Shown here in pieces: positions 3,170 through 25,299 of a stretch of DNA of 34,372 nt. The notes beneath the pieces were generated by a model, which worked only from the letters and a program-made list of their open reading frames with translations, did no database searches and was not told the origin of the DNA. Within the stretch, counting starts at the first letter, position 1. The number at the start of each line of letters is the position of its first letter. The stretch is from NCBI GenBank assembly GCA_028275445.1, contig JAPWUQ010000006.1:1-34372 (forward strand). Reading direction: 5' to 3'. The DNA is from Anaerolineae bacterium. Lineage in GTDB: Bacteria > Chloroflexota > Anaerolineae > JACIWP01. Made by a program: the position numbers and the translations under genes.

Positions 3170-4150
<981 letters not shown>

Positions 4151-4170
4151 CACCAGCGGAGGGAAACCCC

Positions 4171-5616: not shown

Positions 5617-5624
5617 CGGCCGCT

Positions 5625-6401: not shown

Positions 6402-6443
6402 GCTACTTGGACTGGGGAATACTTGTCGTATGAAGGAGTGCCT

Positions 6444-8455: not shown

Positions 8456-8477
8456 GGAGTGGTTGGAGGGATAAGGC

Positions 8478-9653
8478 GTGCGCATCTGCTTGATCAGCGG
8501 CGAGTTTCCCCCCATGCAGGGCGGCGTCGGCGACTTCACCTGGCGATTGGCGGAAGCCATGGCGGCGAAAGGCCATCAGGTGATGGTGCTGACGTCACAG
8601 CAGGCCGCCGGCGCGGCCTGCCAGGGCTGTTCGGTACGGGCGGAGGTGCCCCGCTGGAACTGGGGGTTCTGGAAAACCGCCCGCCGGCTGTTCGAGGAAA
8701 GCCGGCCGGACGTGGTGAACATCCAGTACCAAACCGCCGCCTACGGCATGCATCCGGCGGTGAACCTCTTCCCCTGGTGGTTGCGGCGCCGGCGGGAGCG
8801 GCCGGCAGTGGTGGTGACCTTCCATGACCTGCGGATGCCCTTCCTGTTCCGCGGCGCCGGCCCCCTGCGCCGGCGCGTCAACGACTTCCTGGCCCAGCAG
8901 GTCGACGGCGTCATCGCCACCAACGAAGAGGATTTCGCCCAACTGACCCTGCGGGCGCCGGCGGTGCCGCGCCGGCTCATCCCCATCGGCTCCAATATCC
9001 TGCCGCCGGCCAGCCCCGATTACTCGCGCGAGGCCTGGCGGGCGCGCTGGGGCATCCAGCCTCATGAGTTCGCCCTGGCCTATTTCGGCTTCCTCAACGT
9101 CACGAAGGGGGGCGAGGACCTCATCGGCGCGCTGGAACTGCTGGTGCGGGAGGGTCGGCCGGTCAAGCTCATCATGGTGGGTGGCAAGGTCGGCTCCAGC
9201 GATCCGACGAATTTGCTGTACCTGAACCGCGTCGAACAGCGCATCCAGCAGAGCCGGCTGGAGCCTTATGTGGTCTGGACCGATTACCTGCCCAGCGAGG
9301 AGGTCAGCGCCACCCTTTGGGCGGCGGACGCGGTGGTACTGCCCTATCGCGACGGCGTGTCCACGCGGCGGGGGACGCTGATGGCCGCGCTGACCCACGG
9401 CCGGCCCATCGTGACCACCATCCCATCCCTGCCGGTCCACTATTTCCAGGACGGAGAGAACCTCCTGCTGGTACCGCCGGCCTCCCCGGAGGAGATCGCG
9501 CGCGCGGTACAGCGCCTGATGGAGGATGCCGGCCTGCGGGAGCGGCTGGGCAAAGGCGCCCTGGCGCTCTCGGAACGCTTCACTTGGCCGGCCATTGCAG
9601 AAGAGACCCTGCAGTTCTACATCGAACTGCTTTCCAGGCGGCGCGGCACATGA
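8478..9653 (+). CDS. Glycosyltransferase family 4
   Basis: GTG start; MRICLISGEFPPMQGGVGDFTWRLAEAMAAKGHQVMVLT... typical GT4 N-terminus; C-terminal ...PILTTIPSLPVHYFQDGENLLLVPPASPEEIARAVQRLMED-type donor region. Confidence 0.87.
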   Translation: MRICLISGEFPPMQGGVGDFTWRLAEAMAAKGHQVMVLTSQQAAGAACQGCSVRAEVPRWNWGFWKTARRLFEESRPDVVNIQYQTAAYGMHPAVNLFPWWLRRRRERPAVVVTFHDLRMPFLFRGAGPLRRRVNDFLAQQVDGVIATNEEDFAQLTLRAPAVPRRLIPIGSNILPPASPDYSREAWRARWGIQPHEFALAYFGFLNVTKGGEDLIGALELLVREGRPVKLIMVGGKVGSSDPTNLLYLNRVEQRIQQSRLEPYVVWTDYLPSEEVSATLWAADAVVLPYRDGVSTRRGTLMAALTHGRPIVTTIPSLPVHYFQDGENLLLVPPASPEEIARAVQRLMEDAGLRERLGKGALALSERFTWPAIAEETLQFYIELLSRRRGT

Positions 9654-11938
9654 TGCTCGGCACCGTATCCCCCTTCCCGGCGCCCGATGCGCCCCGCCGG
9701 CGCTTTTCCGAACGATGGCACCCCTGGCTGGTGGCCTCCGTCGTCGTGCTCTTCCTGGCGCTGGGGGTGGTGTACAACGTCACAGTGCCCATCTTCGAGG
9801 CGCCGGACGAGATCCAGCATTTCTATTACATCAAGCACCTGGCGGATGGGAAAGGCCTGCCGGTGCAGGGGACGGCCGAAAGCCGGCAGAGCTGGGCGCA
9901 GGAAGGGAGCCAGCCCCCACTGTATTATCTGCTGGGGGCGCTGGTCATCCGGGGCATGGACACCAGCGACGCCGGCGAGATCATCTGGCTCAACCCGCAG
10001 GCGAACATCGGCACGCCGCGCTATCCCGGCAACAAAAACCGCATCATCCACACGGAGCGGGAGGATTTCCCTTACGAGGGGACGGTCCAGGCGGTGCATG
10101 TCCTGCGGCTGTATTCCCTGCTGTGGGGATGCGGCACCGTTGTAATGACCTACTTCCTGGCGCGGGAGGTCTTGCGCCGGCGCGACCTGGCCCTGCTGAC
10201 GACAGCCTGCGTCGCGTTCACCCCTCAGTTCATCTTCATCCACAGCGCCGTATCCAACGACAGCCTGATCACCTTCCTGAGCACCCTGGGGGTCTGGCTG
10301 ATGGCGCGGATGCTGGGGAGCGAGCGGCCGGCCCGCTATGCGTTCCCCCTGGGATTGACGCTGGGGCTGGCCGCCCTGGCCAAGCTCAGCGGGCTGGCCC
10401 TGTGGGGGCTGGCCGGCCTGCTCCTGGCCTACCTGCTCTGGCGGCGGCGGCTTTCCTGGCCGCAGGCGTTCCTCGCCGGCTGTCTGATGGCCAGCCTCGC
10501 CCTGCTGATCGCCGGCCCCTGGTTCGTCCGCAACCTCACCCTCTACGGCGACCTGACCGGCCTGCGCCCGATGCTGGAAATCGTTGGCCGGCGCGCCGAC
10601 CGGCCGACCCTGGCGGACATCTGGGGCGAATTCCGCGGCCTGCGCATCTCCTTCTGGGGATTGTTCGGCTGGTTCAACATCCTCCTGCCCGAAGCCGTGT
10701 ACAAGGTGCTGGACGGCATCACCCTGCTGGCCGGCCTGGGACTGGTCTTCGGCGCGCTGCGCCGGCGCAGTGCACCGCTGGCACGCCGGCCGGCCGCCGC
10801 CCTGATGGGCGCCTGGCTGACGCTGACGTGTATCTCCCTGGTGCGCTGGACCACCATCACCATGGGCACCCAGGGGCGCCTGCTCTTCCCTGCCATGGCC
10901 GCGTTCATGATCCTTCTGGTGATGGGATTGGCGCAGTGGTGGCCGGAAGAATGGCGGTTCCGAGGGCTCCTGCCCCTGCCGGCCGGCCTGCTGGCCCTGT
11001 CCATCCTCAGCCCTTTCCTGGTCATTCAGCCGGCCTACGCGCGCCCGCCGATATTGACGGAGCAGGAGGTGCCGGCCGCGGCGCGCATTGACCCCCTGAC
11101 CTTCGGGGAAAGCATCCGACTGGTGGGCCTGGAAATCTCGGGGGCGGAAGTATACCCCGGGGAAAGCGTGCATGTCACCCTGTACTGGGAGTGCCTGGCC
11201 TCCATGCAGGAGGATTACAACATCACCGTGAAACTGTGGGGCAGGAGCATGCAGATCGTCGGGGCAGTGGATACATACCCCGGCTGGGGGACATACCCGA
11301 CCAGCCTGTGGCTGCCCGGCCAGGTGGTGAAGGATCGGTATGAGATTGCCGTTGACCCTCAGGCATTGGCCCCCTCGCTGTTGCGCCTGGATGTCGGCGT
11401 GTATCCCCTGGATACGATGGAGCGCCTGCCGGCCTACGACGCCGCCGGCCGACTGCTGTCCCTGCCCACGATTGCCGGCGTCCTCCGATTGGCGCCAAAG
11501 GGGCCGGCGTCGTATACTATCCCGTACCCGACGCGATTCCGCTGGGAGAACGGGATGGTGTTGGATGGTTACGCGCTGGAAGGGGCCACGGTTCGCGCCG
11601 GCGGCATCCTGCAACTGCAGGCATTCTGGCATACGGAGCGCGCGCTGGAGGAGGAGTACACGGTCTTCGTCCACCTGGTGGACCGGGCCGGCCGCATATG
11701 GAGCCAGCATGATAAGCCACCCCTCGATGGGGATTACCCCACGTTGTTCTGGCGGCCCGGCGAAATGGTGATGGATACCTTCTATCTCTCGCTGGCCGGC
11801 GTGCCGGCCGGCACCTACTGGTTGGAGGTGGGGTTATATCCTTCGGACAGCGCCTCCCATCCGCTGGCGCTGGTGGACGATGACGGAGCATCTCTCGGGA
11901 ACCGAATCTGGCTGACGCCCATACGGGTTCAGCAGTGA
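9650..11938 (+). CDS. GT39/PMT-like multi-pass membrane glycosyltransferase with C-terminal tandem beta-sandwich-like region
   Basis: MMLGTVSPF... then TM helix, VPIFEAPDEIQHFYYIKHLADG, SQPPLYYLLGALV, many hydrophobic segments; ATGA overlap with the upstream gene. ORF track start 9317 is in the wrong gene. Confidence 0.78.
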   Translation: MMLGTVSPFPAPDAPRRRFSERWHPWLVASVVVLFLALGVVYNVTVPIFEAPDEIQHFYYIKHLADGKGLPVQGTAESRQSWAQEGSQPPLYYLLGALVIRGMDTSDAGEIIWLNPQANIGTPRYPGNKNRIIHTEREDFPYEGTVQAVHVLRLYSLLWGCGTVVMTYFLAREVLRRRDLALLTTACVAFTPQFIFIHSAVSNDSLITFLSTLGVWLMARMLGSERPARYAFPLGLTLGLAALAKLSGLALWGLAGLLLAYLLWRRRLSWPQAFLAGCLMASLALLIAGPWFVRNLTLYGDLTGLRPMLEIVGRRADRPTLADIWGEFRGLRISFWGLFGWFNILLPEAVYKVLDGITLLAGLGLVFGALRRRSAPLARRPAAALMGAWLTLTCISLVRWTTITMGTQGRLLFPAMAAFMILLVMGLAQWWPEEWRFRGLLPLPAGLLALSILSPFLVIQPAYARPPILTEQEVPAAARIDPLTFGESIRLVGLEISGAEVYPGESVHVTLYWECLASMQEDYNITVKLWGRSMQIVGAVDTYPGWGTYPTSLWLPGQVVKDRYEIAVDPQALAPSLLRLDVGVYPLDTMERLPAYDAAGRLLSLPTIAGVLRLAPKGPASYTIPYPTRFRWENGMVLDGYALEGATVRAGGILQLQAFWHTERALEEEYTVFVHLVDRAGRIWSQHDKPPLDGDYPTLFWRPGEMVMDTFYLSLAGVPAGTYWLEVGLYPSDSASHPLALVDDDGASLGNRIWLTPIRVQQ

Positions 11939-11956
11939 GGATAGGCAGGACACGGC

Positions 11957-13453
11957 ATGCGGGCAAACCGGGCAGTGGACAGACTGCAGGAGATATTCTT
12001 TGGGCAGGACCGCCGGCTGGCCCTGGCGGCGCTGACGCTGGTGATCATCGGCGCCGGCCTGCTGGTGGGCGCCTACGTGGCCGCGCTGGGGCCACTGCTC
12101 GCGGCGGCCCTCTCCATCGCCCTGGTAGTTGGCCTGTTGATGCTGCGCAGTACGCAGTGGGGCTTTTTCGCCGTGGTCACGGTGGCCTGCCTCCTGCCCT
12201 TCGGCGCCCTGCCGGTGGACATCGGCTTCCGGCCCACGTTCCTGGACCTGGTGCTGGTGGTGCTGTACTTCGTCTGGGTCAGCGCCTATGTCACCGGCCG
12301 GCGCAAGGAGTTCATCGCCTCACCGCTGGGATGGACGGTTTTCCTTTTTATGGCGCTGGCCTGCGCCTCGTTCATCGCCGGCCTGACCCATACCCGCCTG
12401 ACGATGTACGTCCTGCGCCACTTCGCTGAAATCCTCATCGCCATCGGGCTGTTCTTCGTGGTGCTGAACACCATCCGCACGCCGGCACAGCTCCGCCAGG
12501 TCCTGCAGGCCACCGCCCTGGCCGGCACCTTTGAAGCGGCCATCGGCATCTTCCTGTACGTTATCCCGCCGGCATGGTCCATCCGCCTGCTCTCCGCCCT
12601 GGGGCGCTTCAACTACCCCACCGGCGCCGGCGTCCTGCGCTATATCGAGGACAATCCCGAGCTGCCCATGCGCGCCATCGGCACGTCCGTGGACCCCAAT
12701 GTCCTTGGTGGGCTGATGGTGCTCATCGGGGGACTGCTGGTCCCCCAGCTCTTCGCCCGCCGGCCGCTGTTCCGCCGCTGGATAAGCGCCGGCATGCTCC
12801 TGCTGGTGGTCACCTGTCTGTACCTGACCTATTCGCGCGCCGCCCTGCTGGGATTTGCGGCCGCCTCCCTGCTGGTGGCGGTCCTGCGCTACCGCAAACT
12901 GCTCATCCTGCTGGTCATCGCCGGCCTGCTCTTCTTCCTGCTCCCGCAGACCCAGGACTATGTGACGCGCCTGATCGAGGGACTGCAGGCGCAGGACCGC
13001 GCCACGCAGATGCGCCTGGGAGAGTACAAGGATGCCCTCATCCTCATCTCCCGCTATCCCTGGTTCGGCGTGGGGTTCGCCGGCACCCCCGATATTGACA
13101 CCTATTTGGGCGTCTCCAGCGCCTATCTGCTGATGGCCGAACAGATGGGTCTGGTCGGGGTGGGCGTGTTCCTGCTGTTCCTGGTGCGGCTGTACCTGGC
13201 GGTCTGGCGGGGATGGCGCCGCGTGCGCGCTCATCAAAATGAAGAGCTGGAGCCGCTGATGCTGGGCGCCTGGGCCGGCCTTTCCGGCGCGCTGGTGGCC
13301 GGCGTCCTGGACCATTATTTCTTCAACTTCGACTTTCCGCATTCGGTGACCCTCTTCTGGCTGTTCATCGGCTGGTGCGCCGCGGCGGCGTATATGGCCC
13401 TGCAGGCGCCGGCCTCATCCGTATCTGGTGGAGGAGCGCATGCCGCTGGTTGA
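11957..13453 (+). CDS. O-antigen ligase/polymerase-like (Wzy/WaaL) membrane protein
   Basis: About 10 or more hydrophobic segments; YLTYSRAALLGFAAASLLVAVL and GVGFAGTPDIDTYLGVSSAYLLMAEQMGLVGVGVFLLFLV resemble the Wzy_C domain. Confidence 0.82.
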   Translation: MRANRAVDRLQEIFFGQDRRLALAALTLVIIGAGLLVGAYVAALGPLLAAALSIALVVGLLMLRSTQWGFFAVVTVACLLPFGALPVDIGFRPTFLDLVLVVLYFVWVSAYVTGRRKEFIASPLGWTVFLFMALACASFIAGLTHTRLTMYVLRHFAEILIAIGLFFVVLNTIRTPAQLRQVLQATALAGTFEAAIGIFLYVIPPAWSIRLLSALGRFNYPTGAGVLRYIEDNPELPMRAIGTSVDPNVLGGLMVLIGGLLVPQLFARRPLFRRWISAGMLLLVVTCLYLTYSRAALLGFAAASLLVAVLRYRKLLILLVIAGLLFFLLPQTQDYVTRLIEGLQAQDRATQMRLGEYKDALILISRYPWFGVGFAGTPDIDTYLGVSSAYLLMAEQMGLVGVGVFLLFLVRLYLAVWRGWRRVRAHQNEELEPLMLGAWAGLSGALVAGVLDHYFFNFDFPHSVTLFWLFIGWCAAAAYMALQAPASSVSGGGAHAAG

Positions 13454-14453
13454 GGAGTTTGTGAAGGCCTTCGGCGTCTGGGACGTGGCCCAGCCGTATA
13501 TCGAGCGCATCGTGGAAGAGCCGGAAATGCGCCTCATCGTCGCCATGCGTGGACAGGCGCTGACGGTCGAAGAGGCCGCCGAACGCCTGGGGATGGCGCC
13601 GGCAGAGGCCGCGGCGTTCCTCGAACGCTGTTATCAGCGCGGCATGGTGCATAAGCAGGAGGGGGAAGACGGCGTCCGGTATGCGTCGGCCGATTTCTAC
13701 ACGCGCCTCGACTACTTTATCCGCTTCGGCGAATGGAAGCAGTTGCCGGCGGAGGCCCGCCGTGCCCTGGATGAGCGCTATGTGCGCGAATACGCCGCCC
13801 GGGTGCGCCCGACGGTCGAGGCGCGCATGCGCGGCGAGGAGACCGAAGCGCATCTGCACAACGACGCGGTGATGCTCCTGCCGGAAGTCGAGGAGATGGT
13901 CGAGGCGGCCCAGGAGATCATCGTCCTGCCGTGCGACTGCCGGCTGGCCGGCGAGCACTGCGACCGCCCCATCGAGGTCTGCATCTGGATGGATGACCTG
14001 GCGCGCGGCATGCTGGCGCGGGGACACGGCCGGCGGATCACTTCCGAGGAAGCGCGCCAGCTCCTTCGCTGGGCGGACAAAAAGGGCCTGATGCACACGG
14101 CTGACCCGAACTGGCGGGAACACGGCCTGACGGCCATCTGCAACTGCTGTGCCTGTGACTGCTACCCCTTCCGCGCCGCCGGCATGCTGGGAAGCAAGGG
14201 AACCTGGCCGCGCTCGCGCTATATCGCCGCGTATGACCGGGACAGGTGCAATCTGTGCGGCGCCTGCGTGCGGCGCTGTCATTTCGGCGCCTTCTCGTTC
14301 GATGGAACCACGGTCATGGTGGAGGGGAAGGAGCGCCGCAACGTGGTGTATGAGCCGGCGCTCTGTTGGGGCTGTGGGCTGTGTGCCAACACCTGCCCCA
14401 CCCAGGCCATCCGCATGGAACCGCTCTCCTCTGGAGGGGATTCTTCCGCATGA
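13440..14453 (+). CDS. Cys-rich 4Fe-4S ferredoxin-type protein with N-terminal winged-helix-like region
   Basis: ATG at 13440 with GGAGG upstream. Cys motifs: CDCRLAGEHCDRPIEVC, CNCCACDC, CNLCGACVRRCHFGAF, CWGCGLCANTCPTQAI. N-terminal QALTVEEAAERLGMAPAEAAAFLERCYQRGMVHKQ resembles an HTH. Confidence 0.82.
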   Translation: MPLVEEFVKAFGVWDVAQPYIERIVEEPEMRLIVAMRGQALTVEEAAERLGMAPAEAAAFLERCYQRGMVHKQEGEDGVRYASADFYTRLDYFIRFGEWKQLPAEARRALDERYVREYAARVRPTVEARMRGEETEAHLHNDAVMLLPEVEEMVEAAQEIIVLPCDCRLAGEHCDRPIEVCIWMDDLARGMLARGHGRRITSEEARQLLRWADKKGLMHTADPNWREHGLTAICNCCACDCYPFRAAGMLGSKGTWPRSRYIAAYDRDRCNLCGACVRRCHFGAFSFDGTTVMVEGKERRNVVYEPALCWGCGLCANTCPTQAIRMEPLSSGGDSSA

Positions 14454-15823
14454 CGCGCATCGTGCGGGTGCTGGCTGTGCCGGCCTCTGGCGGCTATTAT
14501 TACGAGGACCTGGCCGCGCTTCAGGCGCGCCATATCCCGGTCGAGGAGCGCTACACCGCGCCGGCGGTCACGCCCGGCTTCCGCTTCGTGCGCGAGCCAG
14601 CCGAGGCGGTTTCGGTGGGCCTGGTGCTGGACGACGGCCAGGTAGCCTGGGGGGACTGCGTCGGTGTGGCCTACAGCGGCAAGGCCGGCCGCTTCCCGCC
14701 CTTCCGCGCCGCCGAGGGGACGGCGGTCATCCAGCAGGTGGTGGCGCCGTTCCTGGAAGGCCGGCCGGTAGCCAGCTTTCGCGAGCTGGCCGGCGGTCTC
14801 GATGCCCTGCGCCAGGTGGTGGAGGAGCGCCGGCCCCTGCCGCGCCCGCCGCGCGCCGGGCGCCTTTCGCGGCGCGAGTTCCTGACCGCGCCGGCGCGCC
14901 TGCTGGCGCCGGAAGAAGAGCCGCCGATGGAAACTGTGCGCCAGGAGCGCCCCCTCCATCCGGCGATCCATTACGGCGTCACCCAGGCGCTCCTGCGCGC
15001 TGTGGCGCTGTCGCGCCGGCTAACCATGGCGGAAGTCATTGCGGAGGAATGGGGACTGCCGGCGCCCGAATCCCCGGTGCCCATTCATGCCCAGTGCGGC
15101 GGTGACCGCTATCACGGCGCGGACAAGATGATCGCGCGCCGGCTGGCCTCCCTGCCGCATGCCCTGGTGGACGATATTGATGAGCAGTTAGGGCCGAATG
15201 GGGGACGCCTGATCCAGTATGCCCGATGGCTGCGCAGCCGCGTCGAGGCCCTTGGTGGGCCGGAGTACCGCCCGACCATCCATTTGGACGTGCACGGCGC
15301 GCTGGGTAAAATCTATAACAACGTGCTGGGCAAGGTGCTGGGCGACCTGTACGCGCTGGAGCTGGCGGTGGCCCCCCTGCCCCTGCGGGTGGAAAGCCCG
15401 GTCATCATGGAGACTCTGCCGGCGCAGTTGGAGGCACTGCGCTCCCTGCGCGATTATATCCGCATCCGCAAGATGCGGGTGCAGATCGTGGCCGACGAAT
15501 GGGCCAACACCCTGGAGGATATCCGGCAGTTCATCGCCACACGCGCCGCAGATATGATCCAGATCAAAATGCCCGACATGGGCGGGATTCACCACACGGT
15601 GGAGGCGGTGCTGGCCTGTAAGGCCGCCGGCATCGGCGCCTTCCTGGGCGGAAGCTGTGTGGAGACGGACCTCTCCGCCAGAGCGGCGGTGCATGTTGCC
15701 CTGGCGACCCAGCCGGCGATGATGCTGGCGCGCCCGGGCATGGGCGTGGACGAGGCGATCATGATCGTCCAGAACGAGATGGCGCGTGCGCTGGCCTGCA
15801 TCCGCGGCCGGCGGGGAACATAG
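14450..15823 (+). CDS. Methylaspartate ammonia-lyase homologue (enolase superfamily), divergent active-site pocket
   Basis: VLDDGQVAWGDCVGVAYSG, HPAIHYGVTQALLRAVA, IHAQCGGDRYHGADKMI, LPHALVDDIDEQLG, IHLDVHGALG, VADEWANTLEDI, MIQIKMPDMGGI, GAFLGGSCVETDLSA, LARPGMGVDEAIMIV align with MAL family motifs; ATGA overlap with the 4Fe-4S gene. ORF track start 14366 corrected to 14450. Confidence 0.88.
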   Translation: MTRIVRVLAVPASGGYYYEDLAALQARHIPVEERYTAPAVTPGFRFVREPAEAVSVGLVLDDGQVAWGDCVGVAYSGKAGRFPPFRAAEGTAVIQQVVAPFLEGRPVASFRELAGGLDALRQVVEERRPLPRPPRAGRLSRREFLTAPARLLAPEEEPPMETVRQERPLHPAIHYGVTQALLRAVALSRRLTMAEVIAEEWGLPAPESPVPIHAQCGGDRYHGADKMIARRLASLPHALVDDIDEQLGPNGGRLIQYARWLRSRVEALGGPEYRPTIHLDVHGALGKIYNNVLGKVLGDLYALELAVAPLPLRVESPVIMETLPAQLEALRSLRDYIRIRKMRVQIVADEWANTLEDIRQFIATRAADMIQIKMPDMGGIHHTVEAVLACKAAGIGAFLGGSCVETDLSARAAVHVALATQPAMMLARPGMGVDEAIMIVQNEMARALACIRGRRGT

Positions 15824-15827
15824 GGCC

Positions 15828-15913
15828 TTCTCCCCTTCCCCGCCGTGCGGGGAAGGGGTTGGGGGATGAGGCATTCTCCCCCCGCCGTGCGGCGAAGGGG
15901 CCGGGGGATGGGG
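15828..15913. repeat. Two imperfect tandem copies of a GC-rich palindromic intergenic element
   Basis: Copy 1, 15828-15870: ttctCCCCTTCCCCgccgtgcGGGGAAGGGGttgggggatgagg (perfect 10-bp stem, 15832-15858). Copy 2, 15874-15913: ttctccccccgccgtgcggcgaaggggccgggggatgggg, followed by TTTTT. Offset 46 bp. Confidence 0.8.
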
Positions 15914-15943
15914 TTTTTACAATATTGACCGGAGGAAACAGCC

Positions 15944-17380
15944 ATGGTCCTGCAGAGCAATTACGTGATGTACCTGACCCCTCAGTTCCGCAAGCTCTCC
16001 AACGACCAGCTTGCGCAGATCCACAACGCCAGCCTGGAGATCCTGGACCGCACCGGCGTCTGCCTGTACGAGGAGGAAGCGCTGAACCTGTTGAAAAAGG
16101 CCGGCGTCAAGGTGGAAGACGGCAACCGCGTGCGCATCCCGCCCGGACTGGTCGAATGGGCCCTCTCCATCGCTCCCAAGCGGGTCGTGCTGTGCGACCG
16201 CAACGGCCGGCGCGTCATGCCGCTGGAACGCAACAACGTCTTCTTCGGGCCAGGCTCCGACTGCCCGAATATCCTGGACCACCGCACCGGGGAGCGCCGG
16301 CGCGGCACCCTGCGCGATATCGAAGAGGGCATCCGCCTCTGCGACGCACTGCCCAACATTGATTTCCTCATGTCCATCTGCATCGCCTCCGACATCGACC
16401 AGCAGGTGGCCGACCGCTATCAGATGCGCGCCATGCTGATGAACAGCACCAAGCCCATCCTCTTCGTCACCACCGAGTTTGAGGGCACGGTGGACGCCAT
16501 CAAGATGGCCGAGGCGGTCGCCGGCGGTGAGGAGGAACTGCGCCGCAACCCCATCTGCGCCCTGTACATCAACGTCACCTCGCCGCTCCGCCACAATACC
16601 GAGGCCCTGCAGAAACTGCTCTTCATGGCCGGCAAGGGCCTGCCCACCACCTATACCCCGGTGGTCCTGCGCGGCATCAGCGGCCCGGTGACGCCGGCCG
16701 GCGCGCTGGCCCTGGCCAACGCCGGCGAACTGGCCGGCCTGGTCATCGCCCAGCTCAAGCGCGAGGGGGCGCCCATCATCCTCAGCGGCGGCACCAACGA
16801 TATGCTGGACATGCGCACCCTGGGCGACGTGTACGCCGCGCCCGAGAATCGCGTCATGTTCGTCGAGATGGCCCATTATTACGGTCTGCCGGTCTTCGGG
16901 TTGGGCGGCGCCAGCGACTCCAAGCTTCCCGATGAGCAGGCGGCGGCCGAAGCGGCCTTCTCGCTCATCCTGGAAGCACTGGCCGGCACCCACCTGGTGC
17001 ACGACGTGGGCTACCTGGAGTCAGGCATGACCAACTCCTTCGAGCAGATCGTCATTTGCGACGAGCTGATCAACTACGTCAAGCGCTTCATGCAGGGCCT
17101 GGTCGTCAACGAGGAGACCCTGGCGCTGGACGTGATTGACCAGGTGGGGCCGCACGGCGATTTCCTGGGCACAGAGCACACCGCCCGGCACTATAAAGAG
17201 GATTGGTACCCACGCCTGTTGGACCGCAATGATTTCGACACCTGGAAGGCCGCCGGCGGCAAGACCCTGCGCCAGCGCGCCCGCGAGCGGGTGGAAGAGA
17301 TCCTCTCCAGCCATCGGCCGGAGCCCCTGCCGAAGGACGTACAGGCGAAAATTGACGCCATTGTGGAGGGGGCGCATTGA
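15944..17380 (+). CDS. MttB superfamily (trimethylamine methyltransferase family) corrinoid protein methyltransferase, non-pyrrolysine type
   Basis: LSNDQLAQIHNASLEILDRTGVCLYEEEALNLLKKAGVKVE (MttB N-terminus), FGPGSDCPNILDHRTGERR, FGLGGASDSKLPDEQAAAEAA, complete ORF without an in-frame amber; SD CCGGAGGAAAC. Confidence 0.9.
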   Translation: MVLQSNYVMYLTPQFRKLSNDQLAQIHNASLEILDRTGVCLYEEEALNLLKKAGVKVEDGNRVRIPPGLVEWALSIAPKRVVLCDRNGRRVMPLERNNVFFGPGSDCPNILDHRTGERRRGTLRDIEEGIRLCDALPNIDFLMSICIASDIDQQVADRYQMRAMLMNSTKPILFVTTEFEGTVDAIKMAEAVAGGEEELRRNPICALYINVTSPLRHNTEALQKLLFMAGKGLPTTYTPVVLRGISGPVTPAGALALANAGELAGLVIAQLKREGAPIILSGGTNDMLDMRTLGDVYAAPENRVMFVEMAHYYGLPVFGLGGASDSKLPDEQAAAEAAFSLILEALAGTHLVHDVGYLESGMTNSFEQIVICDELINYVKRFMQGLVVNEETLALDVIDQVGPHGDFLGTEHTARHYKEDWYPRLLDRNDFDTWKAAGGKTLRQRARERVEEILSSHRPEPLPKDVQAKIDAIVEGAH

Positions 17381-18741
17381 TGGATGGCACGGCCCTGGTC
17401 GCCCAGTTCATCGCCGGCACACGCTGGGAGCACCTGCCGCCGGCGGTACAGCGCAAGGCGCGCCTGACCCTGCTGGATGCCCTGGGGGCGGCGCTGGCCG
17501 GCCTGCAGGCTCCCGTGGCGCGCATCACCGCCGAATTTGCGGAGGAGACCTGGCCCGGCGAGCAGGCGACCATCCTGGGGAGCGGCCGGCGGGCATCCGC
17601 CGCCGGCGCGGCCTTCGCCAATGGCTATGCCGCCAACGCCATCGACATTGACGACTGCGCGCTTTACACCAAAGGGCACCCTGGCGCGCAGATTTTCCCC
17701 ACGGCGCTGGCGCTGTCCGAGGCGCTGGGGCGGAGCGGGGCGGAGATGCTGGCCGGCATGGTGGTCGGCTACGAGGTGGCCCACCGCGCTGCCCGCATTT
17801 GGCATGCGGCGCACCGCGAGTATCAGGCCTGCGGCTCGTGGGGATCGGTGGCCTGCGCGGCGGTGGCATCGCATCTGATGGGCCTGCCGCCGGCGCAGAT
17901 ACAACACGCCCTGGGCATCGCCGAATACCACGCGCCTAACCTGCCCATGATGCGCGACATTGACCATCCGGCCATGGTCAAGCACGGCATCGGCTGGGGA
18001 GCGATGAACGGCATCCTGTCCGCCCAACTGGCGGCGCGCGGTTTCACCGGCATTCCCAGCCTGTTCAGCCTCGAGACCTATGCCGATTGGGTGAACGACA
18101 TCGGCCGGCATTTCATCATGGTGGACGGCGTCATCTTCAAGACCTACTGCGCCTGCGCCTGGGGCCACGCCAGCTTTGACGCGGCGCGCCGGCTGGTGGA
18201 TGAACACCATATCCGCATCGAGGATATCAGCCACATCCGCATCGAGACCTTCCATAATGCCGTGCGGCTGGGCGCCAACCTGCCGGCCACCACCGAGGAA
18301 GCCCAGTTCAACGTGGCCTGGCCGCTGGCCTGTCTGCTGGTGGATGGGGAGATCGGGCCGGCGCAGGTGCTGGAAGAGCGCCTGCAGGACGAGCGCCTGC
18401 GCGAGCTGGCGAGCAAGGTGGAGCTGGTGGAGTCGCCGGAATACACCGCGTTATACGAGAAGATGGCGCGCGGGGAGGCCGGCGGCAAATACCTGAGCAG
18501 TGTCACCATCACCCTGCGCGACGGCCGCACATTCCGCAGTGGGCCGGTCGAAGGGAACATCGCGTACCCTCAGCCCTGGGATGAGGAAAAGGCGGAGCGC
18601 AAGTTCCGCTGGCTGGCCGGCCGCCTCCTGCCGGCGGATTTCATCGAACACGTGCTGGAAACGGTCCGGCAGTTCGAGGCACTGCCCGACGTGAGGCCCT
18701 TTGTGGCCGCGCTGTGCGAGCATCTCCCAAGGATCGGGTGA
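17377..18741 (+). CDS. MmgE/PrpD family protein
   Basis: ARLTLLDALGAALAG-type N-terminus, NGYAANAIDIDDCALYTKGHPGAQIFPTALALSEA, PAMVKHGIGWGAMNGILSAQLAARGFTG, VIFKTYCACAWGHASFDAARRL; ATGA overlap with the MttB gene. Confidence 0.9.
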   Translation: MMDGTALVAQFIAGTRWEHLPPAVQRKARLTLLDALGAALAGLQAPVARITAEFAEETWPGEQATILGSGRRASAAGAAFANGYAANAIDIDDCALYTKGHPGAQIFPTALALSEALGRSGAEMLAGMVVGYEVAHRAARIWHAAHREYQACGSWGSVACAAVASHLMGLPPAQIQHALGIAEYHAPNLPMMRDIDHPAMVKHGIGWGAMNGILSAQLAARGFTGIPSLFSLETYADWVNDIGRHFIMVDGVIFKTYCACAWGHASFDAARRLVDEHHIRIEDISHIRIETFHNAVRLGANLPATTEEAQFNVAWPLACLLVDGEIGPAQVLEERLQDERLRELASKVELVESPEYTALYEKMARGEAGGKYLSSVTITLRDGRTFRSGPVEGNIAYPQPWDEEKAERKFRWLAGRLLPADFIEHVLETVRQFEALPDVRPFVAALCEHLPRIG

Positions 18742-18778
18742 CGGTCAGCGCGCCGGCGGCCTGTCACCCAATCCTTGG
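18727..18778. promoter_or_regulatory. Long stem-loop overlapping the PrpD-family stop codon
   Basis: CCAAGGATCGGGTGAC (18727-18742) versus GTCACCCAATCCTTGG (18763-18778): 15 of 16 positions pair; 20-nt loop; no following T-tract. Confidence 0.75.
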
Positions 18779-18823
18779 TCAGTCAACGCAAAAATTCAAG
18801 AATGGGGTACACGACAACGGCAT

Positions 18824-21595
18824 ATGGCAGAGATCCGGTTCCTCCTGAACGGACGGGAAGTGACATATGTGGGCGACCCTGGCCGCAGTCTGCTGACGGT
18901 CCTGCGCGAGGATTTCGACGTTATCGGTCCCAAGCAGGCCTGCGACGGCGAGGGGGAATGCGGTGCCTGTGCGGTACTGCTGGATGGGGAGGCGGTGCGT
19001 TCCTGCCTGATACCGGTGGGCAAGGTCGCCGGCCGGCAGATCATCACCATCGAGGGCCTGGGCAGTGATGAGCGCCTGCACCCGCTCCAGCAGGCCTTTA
19101 TCGAGTACGGCGCCGTGCAGTGCGGCTACTGCACCCCCGGCATGATCATCTCCGCCGCGGCGCTCTTACTGCGTGACCCGCGTCCCAGCCGCCGGCGCAT
19201 CCTGGAAGAGCTGGGCGGCAACCTCTGCCGCTGTACCGGCTACCACGCCATCATCGCGGCGGTGGAAGCGGCGGCGGCCATGATGCGGGGCGAGACACCC
19301 CCGCCGCCGGCCCTCCCCCACCACGCCGACGGCCGGCCCTACAGCGCGCCCATCATCGGCAAACGCCTGACCCGCGTGGACGCCGTCGAGAAGGTCACCG
19401 GCAGGGCGCGCTACGCCGAGGACATCAAAATGCCCGGCATGCTCTATGCCGCCATCACCCGCAGTCCCCATCCGCACGCCAGGGTCCTGCGGATTGACAC
19501 GACGTCGGCGGAACGCATGCCCGGCGTCGTCAAGGTGCTGACCGCACAGGACATTCCCGGCCATAACGACCTCGACGATTACAGCCTGGACGAGCATGTC
19601 CTGGCTTTCCCGGGCGATTCGGTGCGCATGATCGGCGATGCGGTGGCCGTTGTGGTGGCGGAAACGATGGAGCAGGCGCGCGCCGCCGCGGACGCGGTGC
19701 AGGTGGAGTATGAAATCCTGCCGCATACGTTCGACCAGGAAGAGGCGCTGTCGCCCGATTTCCCGCCCATTCACGCCGGCGGCAACATCCTGGATTCCTA
19801 CGAGATTCACTTTGGAGAGCTGGAGCCGGCCATGGCGCGGGCCGACCTGCACCTGGAGACGCAGTACGAGACCGTCTTCCTGGAGCACTCGGCGCTGGAG
19901 CGCGAGACGGTGGTGGGCTATTGGGACGAGAACGAGGTGCTGACGCTGATCGCCGGCACGCAGGAGCCGCACTGGGCGCGCGATTTCACCGCCTGGGCCA
20001 TGGGCCTGCCGCCGGAAAGGGTGCGCGTCATCACGCCGCCCATGGGCGGGGCCTTCGGCGGCAAGCAGGACCCGTGGCCGGTCATCGCCGGCGCGCTGGC
20101 GGCCTATTACGTGCGCCGGCCGGTGCGCCTGGCCTACACCCGCCATGAATCCTTCAACGCCTCCCCCAAACGCCATCCCTACCGCATGCGCTATCGGATC
20201 GGCGCCCGCCGGGACGGCACCCTCACCGGACTGCACCTGCGCATCCTGGCCAACACCGGCGCCTATGACTCCGCCGGCCGCTGGATACCGCAGTACGCCC
20301 TGGTCGCCGGCGGCGGGCCGTACCGCTGGGAGGCGGTGGATGCCGTGTGCCATGCCATTTACACCAACGGGCCGAAGGCCGGCCAGATGCGCGGCTACGG
20401 CACCCCGCAGTCCATGTTCGCCCTGGAGTGCACCCTGGACGAGCTGGCAGAGCAGTTGGGCATGGACCCGCTGGAACTACGCCTGCGCAACGCCCTAGAC
20501 GGCCAGACGACCACCTTCCTGGGCTATCCGCCGGCCGAGACCTTCGCCTACCGCGAGTGCCTGGAGTCCATCCGCCCGCATTACCAGGCTGCGCTGGCCG
20601 CGGCCGAGGAATACAACCGCCGGCATGCCAACACCCCCTGGCGCAGAGGGGTGGGCCTGGCCGGCATGTGGTACCGCTTCGGCAAATCGGGCGACCCCCG
20701 CTGTCCAGCCGAAGCGGAACTGCGGGAGGACGGCACCCTGGCCTTCTATTTCTCGGCGCCGGATTACGGCCAGGGCACCAGCACCGTCATGCTTCAGATC
20801 GCGGCCGAGACGCTGGGCATCCCGGTGGAGTATCTGGAGTTCGTCAACGCCGACACCAGCCTGACCCCGGACAGCGGCATCCAGGGCGCTTCGCGCAGTA
20901 CATATTGGGTGGGCGGCGCGGTGCATCAGGCCGCCAGGACGCTGAAGGAGCAGATCTTCGCCATGGCCGCCGAGATGCTGGAGGCGCCGCCGGACCAGCT
21001 CACCCTGACGCCGGCAAGCGTCAAAGGCCCCAACGGCCAGGAGGTTGCTCTGGCGGAGGTCGCCCGCCAGATGAAGCGCGCCGGCTGGCCCCTGCGCGTG
21101 CGCGGCGTCTTTGCCCCCAGCCCCACGCTTCCAGAAACGCGTCCCGAATATCTGCCCTTCTTCGCCACTGGCGTGCAGTTCGCCGAGGTGGACGTGAACA
21201 TCGAGACCGGCGAGGTAAAGGTCGTGCGCATGGTGGCGGTGCACGACGTGGGGCGCGCCATTAACCCCCAGAGCGCGCTGGGGCAGATTGAGGGCGCCAT
21301 CGTCATGGGAATGGGCGCCGCGCTGGAGGAGGAATTCATCCCTGGTGTGAGCACCGGCTTCAGCAACTACTACCTGCCGGTGGCGGTGGAGGTGCCCAAA
21401 ATCGAGGTGTACCTGGTGGAAGTGGCCAGCAACTGGGGGCCGATGGGCGCCAAGGGGCTGGGCGAGATGGCCATCCTGGCCTCTACGCCGGCCATCATCA
21501 ACGGCATCTACCGCGCCAGCGGCGGGCGGGTGCGCAAACTGCCGGCCACCCCCGAACGCGTGCGCCAGGCCATCCAGGAAGCACACAAACGATAG
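18824..21595 (+). CDS. Xanthine dehydrogenase/aldehyde oxidoreductase family, single-chain 2Fe-2S + molybdopterin hydroxylase (no FAD domain)
   Basis: 2Fe-2S motifs CDGEGECGACAVLLDG, CGYCTPGMI, GNLCRCTGY; Mo domain GGAFGGKQD, MRGYGTPQSMFALE, and GAKGLGEMA carrying the expected catalytic Glu. Start at 18824 (MAEIRFLLNGREV). Confidence 0.92.
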   Translation: MAEIRFLLNGREVTYVGDPGRSLLTVLREDFDVIGPKQACDGEGECGACAVLLDGEAVRSCLIPVGKVAGRQIITIEGLGSDERLHPLQQAFIEYGAVQCGYCTPGMIISAAALLLRDPRPSRRRILEELGGNLCRCTGYHAIIAAVEAAAAMMRGETPPPPALPHHADGRPYSAPIIGKRLTRVDAVEKVTGRARYAEDIKMPGMLYAAITRSPHPHARVLRIDTTSAERMPGVVKVLTAQDIPGHNDLDDYSLDEHVLAFPGDSVRMIGDAVAVVVAETMEQARAAADAVQVEYEILPHTFDQEEALSPDFPPIHAGGNILDSYEIHFGELEPAMARADLHLETQYETVFLEHSALERETVVGYWDENEVLTLIAGTQEPHWARDFTAWAMGLPPERVRVITPPMGGAFGGKQDPWPVIAGALAAYYVRRPVRLAYTRHESFNASPKRHPYRMRYRIGARRDGTLTGLHLRILANTGAYDSAGRWIPQYALVAGGGPYRWEAVDAVCHAIYTNGPKAGQMRGYGTPQSMFALECTLDELAEQLGMDPLELRLRNALDGQTTTFLGYPPAETFAYRECLESIRPHYQAALAAAEEYNRRHANTPWRRGVGLAGMWYRFGKSGDPRCPAEAELREDGTLAFYFSAPDYGQGTSTVMLQIAAETLGIPVEYLEFVNADTSLTPDSGIQGASRSTYWVGGAVHQAARTLKEQIFAMAAEMLEAPPDQLTLTPASVKGPNGQEVALAEVARQMKRAGWPLRVRGVFAPSPTLPETRPEYLPFFATGVQFAEVDVNIETGEVKVVRMVAVHDVGRAINPQSALGQIEGAIVMGMGAALEEEFIPGVSTGFSNYYLPVAVEVPKIEVYLVEVASNWGPMGAKGLGEMAILASTPAIINGIYRASGGRVRKLPATPERVRQAIQEAHKR

Positions 21596-21610
21596 CCCGC
21601 AGTGTCGCGC

Positions 21611-21645
21611 AAAGGGCCGGCGCCCATTCTGCCGCCGGCCCTTTT
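21611..21645. terminator. Bidirectional intrinsic terminator between convergent genes
   Basis: AAAGGGCCGGCG-cccattctgc-CGCCGGCCCTTTT: perfect 12-bp stem with A-run and T-run. Confidence 0.9.
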
Positions 21646-21655
21646 CTACGCCAGC

Positions 21656-23233
21656 TCAATCCTCCCGATAGTGACAGCCGTGGCTCTCCTTCGCCTCCCA
21701 GGCCGCCCAGGCCACGATGAGCGCCGCTTCGACGCTGTTGCGCAGGCCGATCAGCCCGTCCGTCAGCCACGTGGTGCGGTAGAAGCGGTCGATCTCCCGC
21801 TGAAGGTGCAGGAGGTCGTCAATAGCACGCTCCAGCCGGCGCGTGCTCCGCACCAGCCCCACATAGTTCCACATGATGTGCTGGATGGTCACCATGTCCT
21901 GATGGATCAGCGCCGGGTCGGCGGTGTAGATCAGCCCTTCCTCGCTCCAAGGTGGGATATCGTCCGGGGAGGCCTGATAATCGCCCAGGGTCTCCACCGC
22001 GTCGATGCCGGCGCGGTAGCCCCAGGTCAGGCCCTCGAGCAGTGAGGCACTGCCCAGGCGGTTGGCGCCGTGCACGCCGGTGCACGAAACCTCCCCGACG
22101 GCATAGAGGTCGCGGATGCTGGAACGGCCCTTATCATCCACCCAGACACCGCCGCAGAAATAGTGCGCCGCCGGCACCACCGGGATGAGATCACGGGTGA
22201 TGTCCACGCCGTTCTCCAGGCAGTTCTGGTAAATGGTCGGGAAGCGCTGGCGGATGGCCTCCGGCGACATGACGGAGCGCAGGTCGAGATAGACGTGGTC
22301 GGCGCCGGTCGCCAGCATCTCGCGGTGGATGGCGCGCGCCACCTCGTCGCGCGGGGCCAGCTCCTTCCACTGCGGGGCATACTTGTGCATGAAGGGCTCG
22401 CCGTGGATATTGAGCAGGCGGGCGCCGGCCCCCCGCACTGCCTCCGAAATCAGGAACAGCGAGGCGCCGCGCTTGTAAAAGGCGGTGGGATGGAACTGCA
22501 CGTACTGGGCGTTGATAATGCGGGCGCCGGCGCGGTGGGCCATCGCCAGGCCGTCGCCGCGGGCGCTGGGCGGGTTGGTGGTGTGCAGGAAGATGCGCCC
22601 CAAGCCACCGGTCGCCAGGATGGTCTTGCGCGCCAGGATAGGCTCCACATGGCCGGTGCTCTGGTTAAAGACGTACGCGCCCACACAGGTGAGGGGTGCG
22701 TAGACGGCCTGCGGGTTGCGGGAGTGGTGCGCCGGCGTGATGAGGTCCACCGCCGTATGGCCGGCCAGCAGGGTGATGTTGGGGCAAGCCCTCAGCGCCT
22801 CGATGGCCCGCTCCTCGATCGCCTTCCCCGTCGCATCCGCCACATGCAGGATGCGCTCGGTGGAATGGGCCGCCTCGCGGATATACTCCAGCTCCTCATC
22901 CGGCCGCTCGGAGAAAGAGACGCCCAGGCGGTCAATGAGAAACTCCCGCACCAGGCGAGGCCCTTCGTGTGCCAGCAGGGCGACCGCCTTCGGGTCGTTG
23001 CAGTAGTCGCCGGCGCGCATCAGGTCTTCCATCAACAGTTCCGGCGAATCTTTCGGCCCCAGGCCAATGATGCCTCCCTGGGCGTAATAGGTGCTCGACT
23101 CGCGCGGGTCCGTCGGGTTCGTGATCACCAGGATATGGCGGTCCGGGGCGCGCTCCGCCGCCGTCAGCGCCGCCACACAGCCGCTGATGCCGCTCCCGAT
23201 GACCAGGATATCGGTCAGGATGTGCTCGCCCAT
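21656..23233 (-). CDS. nadB: L-aspartate oxidase
   Basis: ILVIGSGISGCVAALTAAE (FAD), STYYAQGGI, GRIFLHTTNPPSARGDGLAMAHRAGARI, HPTAF, GVHGANRLGSASLLEGL; adjacent nadA/nadC. Confidence 0.95.
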   Translation of the reverse strand: MGEHILTDILVIGSGISGCVAALTAAERAPDRHILVITNPTDPRESSTYYAQGGIIGLGPKDSPELLMEDLMRAGDYCNDPKAVALLAHEGPRLVREFLIDRLGVSFSERPDEELEYIREAAHSTERILHVADATGKAIEERAIEALRACPNITLLAGHTAVDLITPAHHSRNPQAVYAPLTCVGAYVFNQSTGHVEPILARKTILATGGLGRIFLHTTNPPSARGDGLAMAHRAGARIINAQYVQFHPTAFYKRGASLFLISEAVRGAGARLLNIHGEPFMHKYAPQWKELAPRDEVARAIHREMLATGADHVYLDLRSVMSPEAIRQRFPTIYQNCLENGVDITRDLIPVVPAAHYFCGGVWVDDKGRSSIRDLYAVGEVSCTGVHGANRLGSASLLEGLTWGYRAGIDAVETLGDYQASPDDIPPWSEEGLIYTADPALIHQDMVTIQHIMWNYVGLVRSTRRLERAIDDLLHLQREIDRFYRTTWLTDGLIGLRNSVEAALIVAWAAWEAKESHGCHYRED

Positions 23234-23254
23234 CTCCCCCTCCTTCTTCGTCCC

Positions 23255-24319
23255 TCAGATGGAGAGCATGCGCTCGAGGGCGATGTTCGCCCAGCGCGTG
23301 GTCTCCGGGTCCACGGTGATGTGTCCCACCAGCCGGCCCTCCAGCAGGCTCTCCAGGGTGTACAGCAGATGGGCAATGGTGGTGCGGGCCATGGTGCCGC
23401 AGAAGGATTTGGCCAGGGGCACCACGGTTTTGTCCGGCTGTTCGCGATCCAGCCGGTAGACCAGGTTGCATTCGGTGCCGACGACGAAGGTACTGCCGGC
23501 CGGCGCCGCCTCCACCTGCTTGATGATGTACGAGGTGGAGCCGTTCAGGTCCGCCGCCTGCACCACCGGCACCGGGCATTCGGGGTGGACGATAACGATA
23601 CAGCCGGGATAGCGCCGGCGGGCCTCCTCCACATGGGCCACCGTGAAATGCGTGTGCACGTGGCAGTACCCCTTCCAGACTACGATCTGGGCGTGATCCA
23701 GATCGGGATCGCCCCCAAAGGGCGCGCCCGGGTCCCATACGGCAACCTGTTCCAGGGAATAGCCCAGGGCGAGGGCCGTGTTCTTGCCCAGCCATTCATC
23801 CGGGAAGAAGAGGATGCGCTTGCCCTGGTCAATGGCCCAGCGGAAGACGGCGCGCGCGTTCGCCGAGGTGCAGACCGCGCCGCCGTGCCGGCCGCAGAAG
23901 GCCTTCAGCTCGGCGCTGGAGTTCTGATAGGTGATGGGCACGATGTTCTCCTCCCCCCAGACGCCGGCGACATGGCGCCAGGCGACCGCCGCGTCGGCCA
24001 CCGAGGCCATCATCGCCATGGGACAGGGGGCCTCCATCGCCGGCATCAGCACCGCCTGGTGCGGCGCGCACAGCATGGCGGCGGTCTCCGCCATGAAGCT
24101 CACCCCACAAAAGACGATATATTTGGCTTCCTTCTGCTGGGCCGCCAGGCGCGACAGTTCCAGCGAATCGCCGCGGAAGTCGGCGAAGCGGATGATATCA
24201 TCGCTCTGGTAATGATGGCCGAGGATCACCACGTCCCGGCCCAGCTTCTGGCGGGCGATCGCGGTTCTCTCCAGCGCTTCTTCTCGCGGCAGTCCCACAT
24301 ATTCAGCCGGCAACCTCAT
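23255..24319 (-). CDS. nadA: Quinolinate synthase
   Basis: VILGHHYQSDDIIRFADFRGDSLELSRLAAQ, VFCGVSFMAETA, FFPDEWLGKN, VHPECPVPVV, GTECNLVYRL, CGTMARTT. Start at 24319 (MRLPAEY) after GGAGGG. Confidence 0.95.
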   Translation of the reverse strand: MRLPAEYVGLPREEALERTAIARQKLGRDVVILGHHYQSDDIIRFADFRGDSLELSRLAAQQKEAKYIVFCGVSFMAETAAMLCAPHQAVLMPAMEAPCPMAMMASVADAAVAWRHVAGVWGEENIVPITYQNSSAELKAFCGRHGGAVCTSANARAVFRWAIDQGKRILFFPDEWLGKNTALALGYSLEQVAVWDPGAPFGGDPDLDHAQIVVWKGYCHVHTHFTVAHVEEARRRYPGCIVIVHPECPVPVVQAADLNGSTSYIIKQVEAAPAGSTFVVGTECNLVYRLDREQPDKTVVPLAKSFCGTMARTTIAHLLYTLESLLEGRLVGHITVDPETTRWANIALERMLSI

Positions 24320-24349
24320 GCCCTCCCTCCTCAACGCCCGGAATGCCCC

Positions 24350-25210
24350 TTACCGCTGAAGGGGCTCGACCTCCAGGCTGATATCCAGTGCTGTGACAGA
24401 ATGGGTCAGCGCCCCGACGGAAATGTAGTCCACGCCGGTCTCCGCAATGGCGCGCACCCGCTCCAGGGACACACCGCCCGAGGCCTCCAGGGGGACGCGG
24501 CCGGCGGTCATCTCCACCGCCCGCCGCATGGTTTCCAGGTCCATGTTGTCCAGCATGATGCGGTCCAGCGGGGGCTGGATGGCCAGCGCCTCTTCCAGCT
24601 CCGCCAGCGACTTCACCTCCACCTCGACGGGCAGGCCGGCCTGATTATGGACCCGCACGCGCGCCACCGCCTGGGTGATGCCGCCGGCGGCCGCGATGTG
24701 ATTGTCCTTGATCAGCACCATGTCGAACAGCCCGAAGCGGTGGTTCTGCCCCCCGCCCAGGCGCACCGCCCATTTGTCCAGCACCCGCAGTCCGGGCGCG
24801 GTCTTGCGCGTGTCCAGGATGACGGCGCGGGTGCCGGCCACCGCATCCACATAGCGGCGCGCCGCGGTGGCGATGCCCGACATGCGCTGGAGGAAGTTGA
24901 GGGCCGTGCGCTCCGCCCCCAGGACAGCCCGGGCCGGCCCCTGGACCACCGCCAGCACATCGCCGGCGCGCACCCTCTGCCCATCCTGGCACAGGGATAT
25001 GAAGCGCACCCGCTCATCCACCAGGTGGAAGACCGCCGCCGCCACCGCCAGGCCGGCGACCACCCCATCCGCCTTGGCCAGCAGTTTGCCCTCCAGCTCC
25101 AGCTCCGCCGGCAGGGTCCACTGGCTGGTGACATCGCCCGGCCCGATATCTTCATCCAGCGCCCGTCGGATAATCTGCAGGATTTCCGGCGTGATCTCCG
25201 GCGCGACCAT
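24350..25210 (-). CDS. nadC: Nicotinate-nucleotide pyrophosphorylase (carboxylating)
   Basis: LDEDIGPGDVTSQ, ERTALNFLQRMSGIAT, LDTRKTAPGLRVLDKWAVRLGGGQNHRFGLFDMVLIKDNH, LEASGGVSLERVRAIAETGVDYISVGALTHS. Confidence 0.96.
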   Translation of the reverse strand: MVAPEITPEILQIIRRALDEDIGPGDVTSQWTLPAELELEGKLLAKADGVVAGLAVAAAVFHLVDERVRFISLCQDGQRVRAGDVLAVVQGPARAVLGAERTALNFLQRMSGIATAARRYVDAVAGTRAVILDTRKTAPGLRVLDKWAVRLGGGQNHRFGLFDMVLIKDNHIAAAGGITQAVARVRVHNQAGLPVEVEVKSLAELEEALAIQPPLDRIMLDNMDLETMRRAVEMTAGRVPLEASGGVSLERVRAIAETGVDYISVGALTHSVTALDISLEVEPLQR

Positions 25211-25241
25211 TCGGCGCTCCTTCCGTCCATATGTACGGGCA

Positions 25242-25247
25242 AGTGTA
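25242..25247 (-). promoter_or_regulatory. Possible -10 (TACACT) for the nadC-nadA-nadB operon
   Basis: TACACT on the minus strand with TTGCGC about 17 bp upstream, in the divergent intergenic region. Confidence 0.3.
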
Positions 25248-25299
25248 CTACAAAGCCCACCGGCGCGCAAACAGATTGCCGCCCTGCGGCCGTATGCGC

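Follow-up and report, generated by a model that had tools for sequence, protein, structure and literature searches.

A divergent methylaspartate ammonia-lyase-like enzyme linked to non-pyrrolysine MttB methyltransferases in Anaerolineae, possibly for the breakdown of N-methylated amino acids

Does a run of five co-directional genes in an Anaerolineae genome encode a single catabolic pathway, and if not, which of its parts belong together and on what might they act? The genes lie on contig JAPWUQ010000006.1, of which 34,372 nucleotides were analysed (the window: the whole of this stretch). They encode an Fe-S protein, a C-N lyase resembling 3-methylaspartate ammonia-lyase (MAL), an MttB-superfamily methyltransferase, an MmgE/PrpD-family protein and a molybdenum (Mo)-hydroxylase. 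A first-pass annotation, made from the sequence of the window, had proposed that the five form a catabolic cassette matching no recognised pathway. All five open reading frames are present where it placed them and their family assignments are strong. What is conserved is the association between the MAL-like and MttB genes: this association is real and undescribed in the literature library that was searched, the families themselves being known and the lyase clade clearly divergent. In that library, which misses most subscription journals, no paper held both MttB and methylaspartate ammonia-lyase terms, and nothing was found for Q73A, the active-site change described below.

Neighbourhoods were fetched around MAL-like orthologs, with genes called by codon-usage score, in 16 clade genomes: G000 (the window's own metagenome-assembled genome, 92.6% complete), its congener G001, and G002, G003, G007, G011, G041, G050, G072, G148, G176, G223, G271, G284, G320 and G331. 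Orthologs from other Anaerolineae families are 55-68% identical to the window protein. In 16/16 genomes, representing eight families, MttB lies next to MAL or at most one gene away; a single gene intervenes in G007, G271 and G320, the MAL gene is split over two contigs in G002, and in G148 it runs off the contig end. Taking five families with a single genome each, the chance of such linkage is about 4e-10, a rough figure that ignores shared ancestry. A survey of the class points the same way: a strong MAL match (over 215 bits) occurs in 16 of 396 genomes, 15 of them in the clade, and MttB is present in all 15 strong clade genomes vs. 196 of the 396 overall (hypergeometric P = 2e-5 at genome level and 0.001 at genus level, phylogeny being ignored in both). 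An internal control is provided by G252, the sole genome among the sampled Anaerolineae to carry a canonical MAL: this protein groups with canonical MALs, its gene adjoins glutamate mutase (MutS/L/E), and the genome gave neither an MttB match nor a match to the RACo proteins found in 16/16 clade genomes tested.

Other partners vary by lineage. The Mo-hydroxylase occurs in islands of families f1, f2 and f55, the Fe-S protein in f1, f2 and G271, and PrpD in three families only (two of three species of f1, G011 and G007); in congener G001 PrpD is gone and an unrelated 258-bp spacer stands in its place. HutU-HutH lie directly upstream in f2 and G223, an Opp-type transporter is found in islands of f2, G007, G011, G284 and G271, an Asp/Glu-racemase-like protein lies near MAL in G284 and G271, and AOR and pyridoxal-phosphate (PLP) enzymes are among the partners elsewhere. 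Since the MAL-MttB link is constant while these partners change, conservation applies to the MAL and MttB pair and not to the five-gene set: of the conserved synteny expected for the cassette, the two-gene core is kept across Anaerolineae families and the fixed combination of five is not. The first-pass annotation had the gene content right, and overlooked the changes in the MAL active site, the islands with several MttBs, the HutU-HutH partners and an overlap with the gene upstream.

If the MAL-like protein were an ordinary 3-methylaspartase, then its substrate-binding residues should be those of characterized MALs. At the level of the whole protein the resemblance is close: MAAL_C is matched at 4e-96, and TIGR01502 at 427.8 bits against a cut-off of 286.15 for the EC 4.3.1.2 equivalog, a score that measures the entire protein and does not isolate changes in the pocket. 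The fold matches that of Clostridium tetanomorphum MAL (1kcz; E = 7e-33), and identity to this enzyme and to that of Citrobacter amalonaticus (1kko) is ~38-42%, with the enolase-superfamily catalytic set in common. Numbered on C. tetanomorphum MAL and compared over 14 genomes, the clade retains K331, H194, D238, E273, D307, Q329 and Q172; the window protein itself keeps the catalytic bases (K331/H194), the Mg ligands (D238/E273/D307) and Q329. The substrate-specific residues Q73, F170 and Y356 are, however, replaced in the window protein by A, H and F, accompanied by Y240H and T360S. Position 73 is Ala in 12 of the 14 genomes, F170 is replaced by His, Y240 mostly by His, Y356 by Phe or Leu, and T360 by Ser, the last not being diagnostic because some canonical MALs carry it too. 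Q73 and Y356 are invariant among the canonical MALs compared, four of which have an adjacent glutamate mutase, and those adjoining a mutase all retain Q73, F170 and Y356. The window enzyme differs from 1kcz and 1kko also in its neighbourhood, with MttB in place of a glutamate mutase partner.

In MAL the amino group is bound by Q172 and, via water, by Q73, and the methyl group sits in a pocket whose hydrophobic residues are L384, F170 and Y356 (PMC7241714). Judged from the alignment, the MAL-like proteins are a distinct Anaerolineae clade in which the predicted carboxylate and Mg sites are conserved and the predicted amine and methyl sites altered. The best PDB match of the window protein is 3zvh (346 bits), an engineered Q73A mutant of MAL that scores slightly above the wild-type C. 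tetanomorphum enzyme (344 bits): the change from Gln73 to Ala is natural here, and the clade differs from the mutant in carrying further pocket changes. Engineered MAL, as described by Raj et al. in 2012, reportedly takes a wider range of amines. The clade is further marked by an insert of 40-60 residues with a conserved SRRxFLT motif, which resembles a Tat motif, yet lies within the chain and lacks a long run of hydrophobic residues; in the structure model the insert is a low-confidence loop, and the active-site loops are also of low confidence.

The window MttB-like protein matches PF06253 at 1.5e-104 (350 bits) over residues 8-474, which is the full-length MTTB domain. Its frame is open over 478 amino acids with no in-frame TAG, and TIGR02369 scores 423 bits against a cut-off of 525: on these two grounds pyrrolysyl trimethylamine methyltransferase MttB was ruled out. 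Its nearest PDB entries are those of glycine betaine methyltransferase (2qne and 9yce). In its full-length family match and lack of a pyrrolysine codon it is like MtgB (2qne, 9yce), MtpB, MtcB and MtyB with MtqC/MtqA/RamQ (PMC8604678). The likeness extends to the genome, which holds many paralogs (20 MttB matches in G000) together with 5 B12-binding_2 corrinoid proteins and 2 RACo/RamA-type matches (RACo_C_ter), so that a corrinoid protein and a reductive activator are available outside the window. Unlike those systems, the window MttB adjoins no corrinoid protein, and has a C-N lyase and a Mo-hydroxylase as neighbours. The non-pyrrolysine MttB superfamily comprises thousands of proteins with few substrates known (PMC8604678); MttB has already been reported in Anaerolineae (PMC11264602), and Chloroflexi homologs have been interpreted as glycine betaine methyltransferases (PMC6081815).

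Related genes were also observed in other arrangements. A second recurrent MttB association, found in G000 (L083 1054-6897, contig C231) and G320 (L099), consists of MttB, a corrinoid protein, a further MttB, hydantoinase/oxoprolinase A and a regulator-like gene. At L088 929-4644 (G000, contig C102) two MttB genes flank a gene of the Asp/Glu/hydantoin-racemase family, the same family that occurs near MAL in G284 and G271. Divergent MAL homologs that have lost the catalytic lysine as well as most of the metal ligands lie at L081 1472-2764 and L082 2887-4116; one of them adjoins MttB genes, the other the island's CBS-domain protein.

What, then, might the pair do? The explanation we favour, at a probability of roughly 0.45, is that the locus exemplifies a mosaic type of Anaerolineae island, built around a divergent MAL-like enzyme and one to several non-pyrrolysine MttBs, which serves in the breakdown of N-methylated amino acids, either betaine-type or N-methyl. 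From the families and residues involved we infer a substrate class, a reaction and an outline of steps. MttB would pass the N-methyl group on to a corrinoid protein whose gene lies in another part of the genome, and tetrahydrofolate would then accept it, while RamA-like proteins would return the cobalt to its reduced state. The MAL-like enzyme would take the proton alpha to the Mg-bound carboxylate by means of its Lys331/His194 pair and then eliminate the amine from an aspartate-type substrate, cleaving a substituted aspartate at its C-N bond. Because Gln73 is replaced by Ala, and Phe170 and Tyr356 by His and by Phe or Leu, the predicted substrate is an N-substituted and/or differently 3-substituted aspartate and not 3-methylaspartate. 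Mo-hydroxylase, Fe-S protein and PrpD, and elsewhere HutH/HutU and transporters, would be lineage-specific add-ons; the order Mo-hydroxylase, PrpD, MAL, MttB proposed in the first-pass annotation is fixed by nothing in the evidence. A more specific version, which we regard as doubtful, would have the clade naturally cleave C-N bonds in aspartate-type amino acids that are N-methylated (possibly quaternary), acting with corrinoid MttB demethylases in a previously undescribed betaine-catabolic pathway, with the natural Gln73 to Ala replacement mirroring the engineered one.

Several observations weigh against breakdown of N-methylated amino acids by a MAL-MttB core. There is no corrinoid protein within the window. 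Position 73 is Cys in G007 and Glu in G176, and the G050 clade member has lost catalytic residues (Q172D, D307S, Q329H), and therefore not every clade copy need be active. The MttBs adjoining MAL represent five subfamilies or more, so a single shared substrate is not assured, and adjacency to MttB in MttB-rich genomes could partly reflect a general clustering of catabolic genes. Pairing with a conserved C-N lyase whose active site is altered yet catalytically complete nonetheless makes the substrate class of these MttBs narrow enough to test; some proteins passing the EC 4.3.1.2 equivalog cut-off are probably not 3-methylaspartases; and a methylated-amine role would be added to uncultured Anaerolineae, suggesting a still undescribed route for the breakdown of methylated amino acids.

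The diversity of MttBs and partners is also what would be expected if the two enzymes were separate modules within a general island for the catabolism of methylated amines and amino acids, the MttBs demethylating betaines (e.g. hercynine, with histidine passing to HutH/HutU) and the MAL-like enzyme deaminating an unmethylated 3-substituted aspartate, with no intermediate in common. HutU-HutH lie upstream in some lineages and AOR, PLP enzymes or an Asp/Glu racemase take part in others, and the HutH of the f2 loci looks canonical, being closer to HAL (416 bits) than to ergothionase (258 bits). Persistence of the MAL-MttB link through these changes of partner, and replacement of the amine-contact residue itself, nevertheless make independence possible but on the unlikely side. 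The adjoining HutU-HutH had led us to consider hercynine or ergothioneine as the single substrate; this was rejected, HutH being canonical and, in G000, lying elsewhere without MttB neighbours, and it is retained only as part of the reading of separate modules.

The TIGR01502 score would also fit an ordinary methylaspartate (glutamate or mesaconate) pathway whose glutamate mutase is carried elsewhere or dropped out of the assembly, and genuine MutE is indeed encoded on other contigs of relatives G041 and G072. The mutase had been noted as absent from the window, and MutE (PF06368) also went undetected in the whole G000 assembly, in G002 (98% complete) and in G011 (100% complete), with a sub-threshold match only in G001; the active-site signature, moreover, is unlike that of every mutase-linked MAL compared. 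On mutase absence and pocket residues together the canonical pathway was rejected as improbable. Still less probable is a lyase-plus-epimerase route for N-alkyl aspartates, as in iminodisuccinate (IDS) degradation, in which a PrpD-type epimerase, the MAL-like lyase and the Mo-hydroxylase would act in one pathway and MttB would demethylate the released amine: PrpD lies within the island in three families and matches IDS epimerase (101 bits), but it matches cis-aconitate decarboxylase equally well (102 bits) and is lacking from most lineages and from congener G001.

The features of the locus are collected in Table 1. The Fe-S and MAL genes share the ATGA overlap described in the first-pass annotation, whereas that claimed for MttB and PrpD is actually a 1-nt overlap (TGATG); gaps of 120 nt and 82 nt separate MAL from MttB and PrpD from the Mo-hydroxylase. 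A strong terminator had been said to bound the cassette. A strong hairpin does separate its 3' end from the convergent nadB on the minus strand (minimum free energy -26 kcal/mol for 21605-21655, flanks included; z -3.2), but it has no more than a TTTT run and the terminator scan made no call. The 5' end is not bounded: the Fe-S start codon (13440) precedes the stop (13453) of a co-directional O-antigen ligase gene, and because it sits within the end of that gene the 5' border is undefined. The four genes common to the window and G001 are under purifying selection (dN/dS 0.03-0.12; 0.034 for MttB), and all five look like functional coding genes.

Table 1. Coordinates of features at the MAL-MttB locus in the window.
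Feature	Position	Strand	Description	Basis
Fe-S protein gene (FeS)	13440..14453	+	337 aa	Fer4 families in Pfam
MAL-like C-N lyase gene	14450..15823	+	457 aa, enolase superfamily	TIGR01502, PDB matches, active-site alignment, fold match
MAL-like insert, clade-specific	14801..14959	+	residues ~118-170, SRRxFLT motif	alignments and structure model
Imperfect palindromic repeat, 27 nt	15832..15858	+	MAL-MttB gap; similar unit in same gap of G001	
MttB-superfamily corrinoid methyltransferase gene	15944..17380	+	478 aa, non-pyrrolysine	PF06253
MmgE/PrpD-family gene	17380..18741	+	453 aa, accessory	PF03972 and PF19305
Mo-hydroxylase gene, xanthine dehydrogenase family	18824..21595	+	923 aa	Fer2, Fer2_2, Ald_Xan_dh_C, MoCoBD_1/2
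GC-rich hairpin, strong, probable terminator	21611..21646	.	between convergent genes	sequence and folding energy

The Fe-S protein, a predicted electron carrier, has a winged-helix-like N-terminal part, a cysteine-rich middle (CDCR...CNCCACDC) and a C-terminal 2x[4Fe-4S] ferredoxin part, its cysteines being invariant in a six-member alignment. Its structure model has a pLDDT of 60 overall and ~90 at the N-terminus, the Fe-S half being poor, and in the fold search no match reached E 1e-3, the best of the weak winged-helix matches standing at 3.6e-3. The PrpD-like protein carries both family domains (MmgE_PrpD_N at 2e-52), as do IDS epimerase (2hp3) and cis-aconitate decarboxylase, and differs from these in scoring only ~100 bits to either; since the two match equally, no function is favoured. 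Its identity as 2-methylcitrate dehydratase PrpD was rejected, all equivalog cut-offs being missed (48.5 vs 950, 47.8 vs 575 and 35.7 vs 458 bits).

The Mo-hydroxylase fuses two [2Fe-2S] domains to molybdopterin domains (MoCoBD_1 at 1.5e-75), the domain set of the xanthine dehydrogenase family. In its single-chain domain order and lack of an FAD domain it is like the FAD-less aldehyde oxidoreductase (1sij/1vlb; 1sij is the best PDB match, at 432 bits), whereas it falls below every NCBIfam equivalog cut-off and related loci carry a separate FAD subunit. No FAD domain was found in the chain or adjoining it in the window, and with the equivalog scores this excluded xanthine dehydrogenase sensu stricto.

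Beyond the hairpin lie nadB, nadA and nadC (21656-25270, minus strand), a neighbourhood kept in congeners G001 and G002; a link between NAD and the cassette was dropped, these genes being convergent and ordinary. The co-directional block upstream (2201-13453, plus strand) holds two GDP-mannose-dehydratase-like genes, phosphomannomutase, TatD DNase, polyprenyl synthase, two glycosyltransferases, a PMT-like membrane protein and the O-antigen ligase that overlaps the Fe-S gene. At 25348-27237 (plus strand) is a gene for a protein with 11 LVIVD repeats, which is beta-propeller-like.

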